In this document: piece after piece, positions 14,328 to 17,945 of the stretch
Position numbering within the stretch: the first letter of the stretch is position 1
Layout of the letters: the number at the start of each line of letters is the position of its first letter
Assembly (NCBI GenBank): GCA_903854305.1
Contig: CAINWC010000117.1
Location: 1-18,551, forward strand
DNA: 18,551 bases
Direction of reading: 5' to 3'
Source: an uncultured Pseudomonadota bacterium
GTDB lineage: Bacteria > Pseudomonadota > Gammaproteobacteria > Burkholderiales > Methylophilaceae
Position numbers and translations under genes: made by a program
The notes under the pieces: generated by a model
Told to the model about the DNA's origin: nothing
Seen by the model: the letters and a program-made list of their open reading frames with translations, nothing else
Databases searched by the model: none

Positions 14328-15665
14328 ATGATAAAAAAACTACACTTAATTATCGCCACCTTTAGTTTTGTCGGTTGTGCAGAAAATCCTACTACACCTA
14401 TGAAACCTTTTGAAAATCAAAGAACCTATGATATTCCGGGTGATAAAGTTATAGACTTGCTAGGGAAGGGATTGCCGAGTTTTTTGGCGGCCACTTCAGC
14501 CACGCCTCCCAAAATTGAAGTAAAACATGACGACACTGGGGTGGCACTGATTATTACTAATTACAAGCCTAAAGATGACAGTTATACGCAATGTTTCATA
14601 GCCGGTGAAGGTTTGGGAAGTGCGGTAAAAAGAAAAAATGGACTGGATCATGGCGTGATTGCTATTACCTTGATACCAAGGGCTAAAGGAACGGTTGTTC
14701 GAGTATTAAGTGCCTTTGATGAAAACCACTCGGTAACTGCTCCTGGGAAAGTCATTGGCTATGTAGCTAGTCCTTATGGAAGCGGGGTGGTAAGGGACGC
14801 TACAATGGTTGACGTAGGTTCGCATTGCTACTCTACAGGTATCATACAACGTTCTATTTTTAACATGATTCAAAGCAAAGAGACGAGCCAGGGCAAATCA
14901 GTCAATGAAATTGGGGAAACACTGGTGTTAGATGAAGAGTTCAATGTTGGTAATGACGCTGATGGTGATGGCTTCAAGCGCTATGCGAGCAGGGTAAAAG
15001 GTTATAGCGAGGCTCAACGCAAAAATCTCGTAAATAGCACAATGAATCCGCAAGCTCTTTTCTCAGCCAGGGATGCAAATAGTTTAGGTGTTTTATATGC
15101 TAAAGGTTTAATCGTCCCTAAAAATGAAGCCACAGCGTTCAAGTTGTTTGAAAAAGCCGCAACAACTGAAAGTATAGGTGAGCCAGACGGAACAACGGCT
15201 GCGAGATACAATCTGGGCATTATGTATGAAAAAGGGCTGGGAACGATTAAAAATGAGCCTAAGGCACTTGAGTTCACCCAATTGGCTGGAGGAAATAATT
15301 GGCCCAGAGGACAGGTCAAGCTTGGTTATGTATATGCAAAAGGATTGCTAGGACTTAAAAAAGACGAAAATAAAGCTGCCAAATTGTTTACGCAAGTGGC
15401 TGTTAAACACCCGCAAGAAGGCAGTTATTTTGTGGCGTTACGTAATTTGGGTTATATGTATGCTCAAGGACTCGGGGTGAAAAGCAATGATATTGTCGCC
15501 TATGTTTGTTATAAAAAGATTGCATTTGAGGGGGAGGCTAAAGCCCAAAAAGCATCCGATATCATTAGAGTTAGAATGACGGAAGATCAGATTAATGAGG
15601 CTAACAGCTATTTGGATAATCATACTAAATTTGCACAATATCTCGAAAATAATCTTTATCTATAA
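14328..15665 (+). CDS. Sel1-repeat lipoprotein with an uncharacterised N-terminal domain
   Basis: The product has 445 residues. A short signal peptide ends in FVGC, so Cys17 is probably lipidated, though Phe at -3 is unusual. Residues 30-185 form a domain I do not recognise; it has a beta-rich pattern and two cysteines (Cys89, Cys167). An acidic loop D210-A-D212-G-D214-G follows, like the calcium loop of an EF-hand or dockerin. Four Sel1-type helical repeats then run from about 249 to 401, each with LG-x-x-YxKG or a close variant (YAKGL, YEKGL, YAKGL, YAQGL) and an Ala-rich second helix. Sel1 repeats bind proteins, so a scaffold role at the envelope is likely. The ribosome site is poor. It stands alone between yoaA and arfB. 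Confidence 0.8.
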   Translation: MIKKLHLIIATFSFVGCAENPTTPMKPFENQRTYDIPGDKVIDLLGKGLPSFLAATSATPPKIEVKHDDTGVALIITNYKPKDDSYTQCFIAGEGLGSAVKRKNGLDHGVIAITLIPRAKGTVVRVLSAFDENHSVTAPGKVIGYVASPYGSGVVRDATMVDVGSHCYSTGIIQRSIFNMIQSKETSQGKSVNEIGETLVLDEEFNVGNDADGDGFKRYASRVKGYSEAQRKNLVNSTMNPQALFSARDANSLGVLYAKGLIVPKNEATAFKLFEKAATTESIGEPDGTTAARYNLGIMYEKGLGTIKNEPKALEFTQLAGGNNWPRGQVKLGYVYAKGLLGLKKDENKAAKLFTQVAVKHPQEGSYFVALRNLGYMYAQGLGVKSNDIVAYVCYKKIAFEGEAKAQKASDIIRVRMTEDQINEANSYLDNHTKFAQYLENNLYL

Positions 15666-15696
15666 GCGTATTGCAGATAAATACATTGACCATGTA

Positions 15697-16113
15697 ATGT
15701 CAGTAATTTTAATTCCAGAAACTGAATATGAGCTCACCGCCATCCGCGCCCAAGGTGCGGGCGGGCAAAATGTGAATAAAGTTTCCAGTGCGATTCATTT
15801 GCGTTTTGATATTCCAGCCTCAAGTTTGAGTGATTGGTTAAAAGAGCGCTTGATGCATTTGAAGGATAGCCGCATTACCGATGAAGGTGTTTTGGTCTTA
15901 AAGGCTCAGCAGTATCGTACGCAAGAGGCCAATAAAAAAGATGCGATTAAACGTTTACATGAGATTGTTAACGCGGCAAATCAAGTAAAACCGATGCGCT
16001 ATGCCACTAGACCTAGTTATGGCGCTAAGCAACGCCGCTTAGAAAGTAAAACACAACGCGGGCAAATTAAGCAGATGCGTGGCAAAATAGCGTCTGACAA
16101 AAATGAGCATTAA
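15697..16113 (+). CDS. arfB: Alternative ribosome-rescue factor ArfB (peptidyl-tRNA hydrolase)
   Basis: ArfB (YaeJ) enters ribosomes stalled on messages without a stop codon and releases the peptide. The product has 138 residues, as in E. coli (140). It has the GGQ catalytic motif at 22-24 in the context RAQGAGGQNVNKVSSA, the typical class-I release-factor core without codon-recognition domains, and a basic C-terminal tail (about 108-134; KQRRLESKTQRGQIKQMRGK) that fits the empty mRNA channel. I chose ATG 15697; the frame is open 34 codons further up but that stretch is hydrophobic, nonconserved and overlaps the Sel1 gene. The gene overlaps tsaB by 11 bases and probably begins an operon with tsaB and rimI. 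Confidence 0.94.
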   Translation: MSVILIPETEYELTAIRAQGAGGQNVNKVSSAIHLRFDIPASSLSDWLKERLMHLKDSRITDEGVLVLKAQQYRTQEANKKDAIKRLHEIVNAANQVKPMRYATRPSYGAKQRRLESKTQRGQIKQMRGKIASDKNEH

Positions 16114-16810
16114 ACCTAACGTGAATTTACTCGCACTCGACACCTCTACTGAATACTTATCACTTGCTTTACTGAAAGGCGATAAAACGTTTACCTTTGA
16201 TATCAACGCTGGGCAAACGCATTCGCAAATCATCTTGCCGCAGTTGCAAGCCTTACTTAATGAGGCTAATTTGCAGTTAAAAGAGTTGCAGGGCATTGCT
16301 TTTGGCGCGGGACCAGGTTCATTTACCGGTGTGCGTATTGCCGCTGGCGTGGTGCAGGGCTTGGGCTTTGGGGCTAATTTGCCAGTGGTGAGTATTTGTA
16401 CATTACTGGCGTTGGCTGAAGCGAGCGGTGCAGAGAAAGTCATTGCCTGCTTGGATGCGCGCATGGGCGAGGTCTATCACGCAGCTTATGCAAGAGTTTC
16501 AGGCGAATGGCAAATAGTGATTGAGCCTGGACTATATAAGCCCGAAGCTGCACCAGCCATAGAAGGTAACGGTTGGACTGGCGCTGGTAGCGGTTGGCAG
16601 ACTTATAAAGAGCAGCTAGGTGCTGTTTATGCTGGGCAGTTGCAGGCCGTGCAGCCAGAACTATTGCCAATTGCTAGTGCCATACTCAGGCTGGCGCAGC
16701 CTATATTCGCAAGAGGCGAGGCGAAGCCTGCAAGTGAGGCAATGCCGATTTATATTAGAAACCGTGTCGCGCTTAAAACTGCGGAGCGTGAGCAGGGCTT
16801 GCGTTTATGA
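16103..16810 (+). CDS. tsaB: tRNA t6A37 biosynthesis protein TsaB
   Basis: TsaB partners TsaD and TsaE in transferring the threonylcarbamoyl group to A37 of ANN-decoding tRNAs. The product has 235 residues, close to E. coli TsaB (231). It has the ASKHA-fold N-terminus LLALDTSTEYLSLAL (9-23), the HSQIILPQLQALL stretch, and the family hallmark GAGPGSFTGVRIAAG (68-82). CLDARMGEVYHAAY is also typical. It lacks the metal-binding histidine motif of TsaD, as expected for this inactive paralogue. It overlaps arfB by 11 bases and rimI by 4 (ATGA), so translation of the three is coupled. Confidence 0.96.
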   Translation: MSIKPNVNLLALDTSTEYLSLALLKGDKTFTFDINAGQTHSQIILPQLQALLNEANLQLKELQGIAFGAGPGSFTGVRIAAGVVQGLGFGANLPVVSICTLLALAEASGAEKVIACLDARMGEVYHAAYARVSGEWQIVIEPGLYKPEAAPAIEGNGWTGAGSGWQTYKEQLGAVYAGQLQAVQPELLPIASAILRLAQPIFARGEAKPASEAMPIYIRNRVALKTAEREQGLRL

Positions 16811-17268
16811 GTGCAGCGTTGAACATTCAAGCGCAATTTCGTCCGATGCAGTTGGATGATTTAGATGAAATTCTGGCGATTGAGCCACAGATTTACCCCT
16901 ATCCTTGGTCGCGCGGCAACTTTAGTGACTCATTGAATTCTGGTTATAGCGCATGGGTGCTGGTTGAGCATGAAAAGATTATTGCTTATGCACTATTGAT
17001 GATGGTGTTAGATGAGGCGCATTTGCTCAATTTAAGCGTTGCGAAATCGTACCAAAAGCAAGGTTTAGGCCGATTATTGTTAGAGCACATGCTGCAAATT
17101 GCCAGAAATCATCAGGCGGCCAATATGTTTTTAGAGGTTCGCCAGAGCAATGTTTCAGCCATCGCTTTGTATGAAAATATCGGTTTTAATGAAATGGCGA
17201 TTCGACGTGGCTATTATCCAGCTGCAAATGGGCGTGAAGATGCTGTTTTAATGGGGTTGGCGCTATGA
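16807..17268 (+). CDS. rimI: Ribosomal protein S18-alanine N-acetyltransferase RimI
   Basis: RimI acetylates the N-terminal alanine of ribosomal protein S18. This 153-residue GNAT protein shows the family start (FRPMQLDDLDEILAIE), the PYPWSRGNF segment typical of RimI (31-39), and the acetyl-CoA motif Q83-x-x-G86-x-G88 (YQKQGLGRLLLEH). The catalytic Glu110 (FLEVRQSN) and Tyr122 (ALYENIGF) are in the positions expected for the E. coli enzyme's Glu103 and Tyr115. RGYYP (134-138) is a further RimI signature. Four-base overlaps join it to tsaB upstream and to the UDG-fold gene downstream. In E. coli rimI is instead joined to holD, which bears on the identity of the next gene. Confidence 0.95.
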   Translation: MSAALNIQAQFRPMQLDDLDEILAIEPQIYPYPWSRGNFSDSLNSGYSAWVLVEHEKIIAYALLMMVLDEAHLLNLSVAKSYQKQGLGRLLLEHMLQIARNHQAANMFLEVRQSNVSAIALYENIGFNEMAIRRGYYPAANGREDAVLMGLAL

Positions 17269-17945
17269 GCTTAATGACGCGTGAAGACATGTTGCGAGAA
17301 TTGGAGTTGTTGCCTGTGTGGCAGCTTCGTGCTCCTTTGCCATCATCGCTGGCAGAAGTTCCGTTGGTCGTATCAGATACTGCCATGTTAGAGGTAGAGC
17401 CGCCAACTGTAACGCTTGCGGAAGCATTGCCAATCAATGCTGAGAAAATTACAGTTGAGGTTGCTGCAACTCAAGTGCTGGATGTTGAAGAACCGTTACA
17501 AGTTGAAACGTTGGCGATTGTTGACTTGCCGGCAATAGAGCCAGTAGTCATGTCACCACTTTTCGCGGATATTGCAAATGATGATGGTGATTGGTTATTT
17601 GTGTTGCCAAACACTGTATTGCGAGCCGATGAAGCGCGGTTGTTGCAAAACATTTTTATGGCTATGCGCATTAAAGCTCAACCAGTAGAAATCTCATCAA
17701 ACATTGCGGATGTTATTAACACCACTCAACCCAAACTGGTGGTTGCGATGGGCGAAGCAACCGCGCAGGCGATGTTGCAATCAACCGAAACATTAAGCCA
17801 TTTACGCGGCACGCTTCATCAATTTCAAGGTATTGCACTAGTGGTCACCTATGATTTAGCTCATTTGTTACAAACGCTGCCAGACAAAGCAAACGCATGG
17901 AACGATTTGTGTTTAGCCATGCAAGCTTTGCATAAGCTTAAATAA
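17265..17945 (+). CDS. UDG-fold protein without catalytic residues; candidate DNA polymerase III psi subunit (HolD-like)
   Basis: The product has 226 residues in three parts. Residues 4-24 (TREDMLRELELLPVWQLRAP) resemble, from memory, the N-terminal clamp-loader-binding peptide of HolD, with the same L-x-x-L...W-x-LR-x-P pattern. Residues 25-105 are a Val/Glu/Pro/Ala-rich, probably disordered linker. Residues 106-226 resemble the end of family-4 uracil-DNA glycosylases: PKLVVAMGEATAQAML (156-171), LRGTLHQFQGIALVVTY (180-196), and DKAN-AW-x-DLCLAM. The GEAPG catalytic region is absent, the usual HP after VTY is Asp197-Leu198, and Cys216 is the only cysteine, so no Fe-S cluster is possible. It is therefore unlikely to be an active glycosylase. 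Its ATGA overlap with rimI parallels the holD-rimI pair of E. coli. A plain degenerate glycosylase remains the alternative. Confidence 0.75.
   Translation: MSLMTREDMLRELELLPVWQLRAPLPSSLAEVPLVVSDTAMLEVEPPTVTLAEALPINAEKITVEVAATQVLDVEEPLQVETLAIVDLPAIEPVVMSPLFADIANDDGDWLFVLPNTVLRADEARLLQNIFMAMRIKAQPVEISSNIADVINTTQPKLVVAMGEATAQAMLQSTETLSHLRGTLHQFQGIALVVTYDLAHLLQTLPDKANAWNDLCLAMQALHKLK

Follow-up and report, generated by a model that had tools for sequence, protein, structure and literature searches.

The window analysed here, a whole stretch of 18,551 nucleotides, is contig CAINWC010000117.1 of assembly GCA_903854305.1, derived from an uncultured bacterium of the Methylophilaceae. It contains a run of overlapping genes, including tsaB and rimI, which ends in a gene encoding a candidate psi subunit (HolD) of DNA polymerase III (Table 1). 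The encoded protein consists of an N-terminal peptide, a linker and a C-terminal domain resembling family-4 uracil-DNA glycosylases (UDGs). Comparison of 74 relatives revealed residues 4-22 as the best-conserved stretch, with a mean majority-residue fraction of 0.93; the core reached 0.67 and the linker 0.17. In this protein family, constraint lies on the N-terminus.

Table 1. Position of the psi-like gene, its parts and its neighbours in the window.
Feature	Positions	Strand	Remarks
Psi-like protein, coding sequence	17265..17945	+	226 residues plus stop; start within ATGA overlap with rimI
N-terminal peptide, residues 4-24	17274..17336	+	putative counterpart of the psi clamp-loader-binding peptide; linked to HolD N-termini via relatives
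Linker, residues 25-97	17337..17555	+	mostly predicted disordered, unconserved
Degenerate family-4 UDG domain, residues 98-226	17556..17942	+	also matched by the Pfam psi model in some relatives
VTYDLAHLL, residues 194-202	17844..17870	+	site of the lost His-Pro catalytic motif; VTYHPAYLL in active relatives
DKANAWNDLC, residues 207-216	17883..17912	+	C-terminal K-x3-W helix, common to HolD and UDG-type relatives
rimI	16807..17268	+	neighbour marking the holD locus in E. coli and in relatives
tsaB	16103..16810	+	upstream, same run of overlapping genes

The fold matches of the modelled window protein, UdgX among them, identified the fold of a family-4 UDG. The catalytic motifs GE[AG]PG and HP were absent, and a single cysteine was present where a [4Fe-4S] cluster requires four. 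Among 120 listed relatives none contained GE[AG]PG and none had at least four cysteines; the residue following [TS]-[YHF] was Asp in 104 and His in one. These data confirmed the initial annotation, which had described a UDG-like domain with one cysteine and without catalytic motifs. The window protein matched no PDB sequence at E up to 10, and 1EM8 was absent among the 50 fold matches listed for its model, which has no bearing either way. The genome contained no match to Ung but two other genes of the UDG superfamily, labelled by eye as one family-5-like and one mismatch-type; their presence may be the reason why catalysis could be lost in the window lineage.

The surroundings of rimI were surveyed in related genomes. 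The RimI sequence of the window was matched in 149 of the 150 genomes sampled from its order and in 125 of 149 genomes at class level. From the 149 order genomes, 100 loci were chosen to spread over families (f26 was left out) and 99 were kept (L105 had no RimI match in its stretch); 60 of the 125 class-level loci were taken and 59 kept (the contig of L137 ends before the upstream open reading frame, ORF). Twenty further stretches, chosen for special questions, stand outside the 99. A UDG was counted as motif-bearing when it contained GE[AG]P[GNS] and HPA[YS]LL preceded by T or S and then His or an aromatic residue. By this strict motif, the ORF next to rimI was a UDG with catalytic motifs kept in 81 of 99 order loci (beta UDG types); at class level, a motif-bearing UDG lay upstream of rimI, on the same side as holD in E. 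coli, in 44 of 59 (gamma UDG types). The other 18 order loci comprised L067 and L082, which narrowly miss the pattern and were counted as non-bearing, the interrupted locus L096 (G018:C21) and 15 degenerate or short cases read by eye. In L096 an ORF of 388 residues, transposase-like by eye, lies between rimI and the UDG, the start of which is still psi-like. Furthermore, the best 80 named loci were selected, non-randomly, by likeness to a beta UDG; rimI stood beside the UDG in all 77 readable ones, including Nitrosomonas, Nitrosospira, Paraburkholderia, Cupriavidus, Ralstonia, Thiobacillus, Thauera and Methylomonas koyamae (L187, L248 and L255 had no ORF passing the motif filter).

Within their first 120 residues, 78 of the 81 beta UDG types showed a psi-like N-terminal pattern in a loose form and 66 in a strict form, both written after the sequences had been seen; 41 of the 44 gamma UDG types showed the pattern as well. 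In the first 70 residues of 1733 other ORFs the loose form occurred 18 times and the strict form never, nor did the latter occur in eight family-4 UDGs located away from rimI. It had been proposed that many betaproteobacteria may carry a still-active UDG with the same N-terminal peptide at this locus; as far as intact motifs and the N-terminal pattern go, this holds, and the class-level loci extend its reach beyond that claim. Several individual loci deviate. L124 and L125 (family f39) encode a UDG away from the RimI match with a strict psi-like start and low hidden Markov model (HMM) scores, hence the peptide may occur outside the rimI locus. L020 (G130:C40) contains a UDG-type psi candidate ORF of 605 residues, and the UDG match in this genome is split in two; the ORF seems to harbour a LAGLIDADG endonuclease intein, as judged from Pfam matches in one member of set A3, which were assigned to L020 by its length and the split match. 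In L146 and L153 (family f60), upstream of rimI, most of the core is lost by eye, while a peptide-like N-terminus, a linker and the K-x3-W segment are kept.

The N-termini were then compared with those of known psi proteins. A profile built from 38 of the 44 gamma N-termini (A4) was run against 177,635 distinct PDB sequences, and psi occupied ranks 1-4: 3GLI_O (E 1.7e-4), which is the psi peptide in complex with the clamp loader, 9OYG (2.0e-4), and 8GIY and 3SXU (both 1.7e-3); the next, unrelated match had an E of 0.3. The corresponding profile of 60 of the 81 beta N-termini (A5) gave no match in the PDB. In profile comparisons, probabilities were 92.7% for gamma versus enterobacterial HolD, 84.7% for beta versus HolD, 92.5% for beta versus gamma and 98.0% for window versus beta, none being reached in 40 column shuffles. 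The peptide of the window protein is thus connected through its relatives to the clamp-loader-binding peptide of psi. An HMM trained on enterobacterial HolD N-termini only scored at least 8 bits in 11 of 100 order-level neighbours, 18 of 59 class-level neighbours and one of 1733 other ORFs; a gamma-trained HMM scored at least 5 bits in only 40 of the 100 order-level neighbours versus 10 of the 1733 other ORFs. The Pfam psi model matched 19 of the 44 gamma UDG types (best E 6.4e-5; N-terminal in the one member with positions shown) and only two of the 81 beta UDG types. Between L-x-L and Trp, 73 of the 81 beta proteins and all 120 of the window family have three residues; two are found in 41 of the 44 gamma proteins, in 119 of 120 from pseudomonads and in 117 of 120 from enterobacteria. 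Judged by these sequence comparisons, we take the N-terminal peptide of the rimI-linked proteins to be the psi peptide.

A psi signal was also found in the core domain. An unprompted Pfam scan of 74 members of the window family matched UDG in 61 and DNA_III_psi in 31 (E up to 1; best DNA_III_psi E 0.0017); these were the only two families matching many members, the next one matching five. When seven relatives were scanned singly, the psi model (positions 39-126) and the UDG model covered the same C-terminal region in P0028 and P0085, and the psi model had no match in the other five. The postulated bridge between family-4 UDGs and HolD is supported by this overlap. HHalign, an HMM-HMM comparison of the kind that the initial annotation had suggested for both profiles, connected the window core with UDG cores at 99.9% and reached HolD via intermediates: the window family matched a pool of 14 short neighbours at 99.2%, and the same pool matched HolD at 97.8%. 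The window core is therefore linked to the psi core through these intermediates. In L048 and L113, both short neighbours, the Pfam psi model matched peptide and core together. A fold search with E. coli psi gave UDGs as the nearest other solved folds; direct HHalign of the enterobacterial HolD core with UDG cores gave noise.

The C-terminal K-x3-W pattern, picked after the sequences had been seen, was present in all 81 beta UDG types and in 43 of the 44 gamma ones. Out of 120 proteins each, 119 window relatives, 118 pseudomonad and 113 enterobacterial sequences had it, as against none of the eight family-4 UDGs away from rimI. It also occurred in 184 of 1831 unrelated ORFs and, as read off an alignment, in the Thermus UDG; it was therefore dropped as a psi-specific mark and supports shared descent only.

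Additionally, the 150 order genomes were searched for chi, psi and Ung. Chi (PF04364) was found in 146, and PF03603, the HolD family, in six at E up to 0.01, all beside rimI; on the classical view this leaves 140 genomes with chi but without psi. Three whole-genome PF03603 matches of the order- and class-level searches, in G025, G201 and G221, lay beside rimI and covered only the N-terminal 21-25 positions of the model; the one in G025 falls at the beginning of the UDG-type ORF in L043. In the genome of the window, which is 90.4% complete, chi was present and PF03603 detected no other psi; a separate holD, which would have spoken against the proposal, was not found in this assembly. Three of the four genomes without chi make up all the sampled members of family f40 (loci L106, L107, L108 and L109), with the family-4 UDG next to rimI in two and on another contig in the third; in none of the three did this UDG show the peptide by beta, gamma or HolD HMM or by the strict pattern. 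In a quick tree, in which degenerate rows sit on long branches with unsure positions, f40 fell inside the beta clade with a support of 98; its neighbour there is L100, where the peptide is present (27 bits) in a genome with chi. The joint absence of chi and peptide is as would be expected if both work together, but it represents one event. Three f2 loci lack the strict pattern although chi is kept, which argues against such coupling, yet one of them, L112, scored 20 bits with the beta HMM. The fourth genome without chi, G034, keeps the peptide (L031); since two relatives of its family have chi, an assembly gap is likely.

The UDG survey of the order genomes covered classical Ung and family 4. 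Classical Ung occurred in only 39 of 150; in many of these 150 genomes the rimI-linked UDG may therefore rank among the main enzymes of uracil removal. The idea that loss of catalysis simply follows the presence of Ung was rejected: among 18 degenerate or short order-level cases read by eye (15 from the order loci plus L113, L114 and L115), Ung was present in seven and absent in 11.

We conclude, with a probability of about 0.85, that this Methylotenera-like lineage has its psi subunit of DNA polymerase III in the window protein, as had been proposed in the initial annotation, which saw in it a missing psi built on a family-4 UDG-like domain. The evidence consists of sequence homology, some of it via intermediates, together with the fold, the missing catalytic residues, the position of the gene, a conserved peptide, and a searched genome with chi and no other psi found; from it we infer binding to DnaX and chi and loss of uracil excision. 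According to passages of two publications, E. coli psi reaches into the clamp-loader collar by its N-terminal part and pairs with chi, which binds the single-stranded DNA-binding protein SSB (PMC3290774; PMC11253446). Correspondingly, docking on the DnaX collar is predicted for the N-terminal peptide of the window protein; the linker, being flexible, would leave the remainder free to swing, and the C-terminal domain, a family-4 UDG devoid of its catalytic motifs and iron-sulphur cysteines, would hold chi and via chi reach SSB. The protein probably descends from a rimI-adjacent UDG already bearing the psi peptide, the type that sits beside rimI in most sampled beta- and gammaproteobacterial loci; the window lineage would have kept the psi role alone, with the UDG domain now a scaffold for chi. 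Furthermore, psi is probably a still-active family-4 UDG in most lineages of Beta- and Gammaproteobacteria, with E. coli HolD, pseudomonad psi and the window protein as separately stripped-down forms. The relatives of the window protein suggest a repair enzyme of this kind as the ancestor of the textbook E. coli psi as well.

Direct comparisons of the window protein weigh against its being psi. The enterobacterial HolD profile alone gave a weak 3.7% and does not reach the window core; the window N-terminus matched that of HolD directly at a weak 10.8% (0/40 shuffles) and the gamma N-termini at 8.1% (1/40 shuffles); and the window scored only 4.4 bits with the gamma-trained N-terminal HMM and, as one of the 100 order-level neighbours, 1.2 bits with that of HolD. 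The weak N-terminal matches to HolD and gamma are likely due to the different Trp spacing. Weakness of the direct match and shortness of the peptide would suit a degenerate UDG with no relation to the clamp loader, such as a remnant with a regulatory or DNA-binding role, the N-terminus of which resembles HolD by convergence. Such a remnant is very improbable: separate coincidences would have to account for the location at the HolD locus, for the intermediates, for the likeness in fold between E. coli psi and UDGs and for the Pfam psi matches over the core, and the gamma peptide retrieved psi itself at the top of the PDB search.

That the peptide merely tethers a present or former UDG to the clamp loader for repair following the fork, binding DnaX and not chi and thus being no true psi, appears unlikely. 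Most sampled relatives do keep the UDG motifs, repair tethering is a plausible first use of the peptide, and chi binding by the window protein is a prediction. However, the six PF03603 matches lie beside rimI, where the UDG type sits elsewhere, chi is kept in nearly all order genomes, the window lineage lost catalysis yet kept peptide and fold, and L048 and L113 match the Pfam psi model over both parts together. Excision of uracil or another base by the window protein through a changed active site is extremely improbable. The fold is kept, and UdgX, with its changed chemistry, illustrates among the fold matches that the family can alter its reaction; however, GE[AG]PG and four cysteines are missing from all 120 listed relatives, Asp predominates over the single His at the catalytic position, and two other UDG-superfamily genes are available in the genome.

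In the relevant passages of a 2012 review, chi is placed in alpha-, beta- and gammaproteobacteria and psi only in gammaproteobacteria, and it is asked whether other psi homologues have diverged past detection or chi has other partners or functions (PMC3290774). The present finding would name the psi of betaproteobacteria. Relatives of the window protein are publicly named uracil-DNA glycosylase, hypothetical protein or 'DNA polymerase', which suggests why this psi was overlooked; the last name (P0004 and others) looks like an annotation error. The finding also offers an origin for psi, namely HolD from a family-4 UDG. If psi is a still-active UDG in most lineages, uracil removal would be built into the clamp loader and the ancestor would have been bifunctional; replication-coupled uracil repair is predicted in many bacteria, classical Ung being present in only 39 of the 150 order genomes. 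A search of mainly open-access literature found no paper joining psi and UDG. Elsewhere in the window, the ORF at 15595-16113 (+) with a GGQNVNK motif, the true start of which is probably a later ATG, presumably encodes a protein resembling the peptidyl-tRNA hydrolase ArfB.

In comparison with solved family-4 UDGs (TIGR00758; 1UI0, 1VK2, 4ZBX), which have catalytic motifs and iron-sulphur cysteines, the window protein has lost both, and it carries the psi peptide, which they lack, aligning to the rimI-linked profile only from about position 61. E. coli HolD (PF03603) shares with it the position beside rimI, the peptide plan, a C-terminal K/R-x3-W helix and, by eye, the order of strands and helices in the core; however, HolD has 137 residues and no long linker, and its gene lies upstream of rimI, whereas the window gene lies downstream. 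Pseudomonad psi has the same plan, with N-terminal peptide, long linker and C-terminal psi core. The cryptic psi of pseudomonads (HolD, PA4679 in P. aeruginosa) was reportedly described by Jarvis et al. in 2005. At the Stutzerimonas-like locus L155 a psi-like gene lies next to rimI, as in the window, and by genus names, length and place we infer its orthology to PA4679; its pseudomonad relatives (P0122 and others) are publicly named 'energy transducer TonB', which looks like an annotation error. Little UDG signal is left in the pseudomonad core, which HHalign matched to UDG cores at 1.3-1.7%, as compared to 99.9% for the window core, and the spacing before Trp is two residues where the window family has three. 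As far as the cited passages report, P. aeruginosa psi is proven by experiment and has, besides the psi core, a flexible stretch that was modelled with 125 residues and an N-terminal end that is conserved (PMC3197488); a form longer by 45 residues supported a conditional mutant, whereas the shorter annotated start failed (PMC8879598). Since the window protein has the plan of this psi, it would be expected to work as one.
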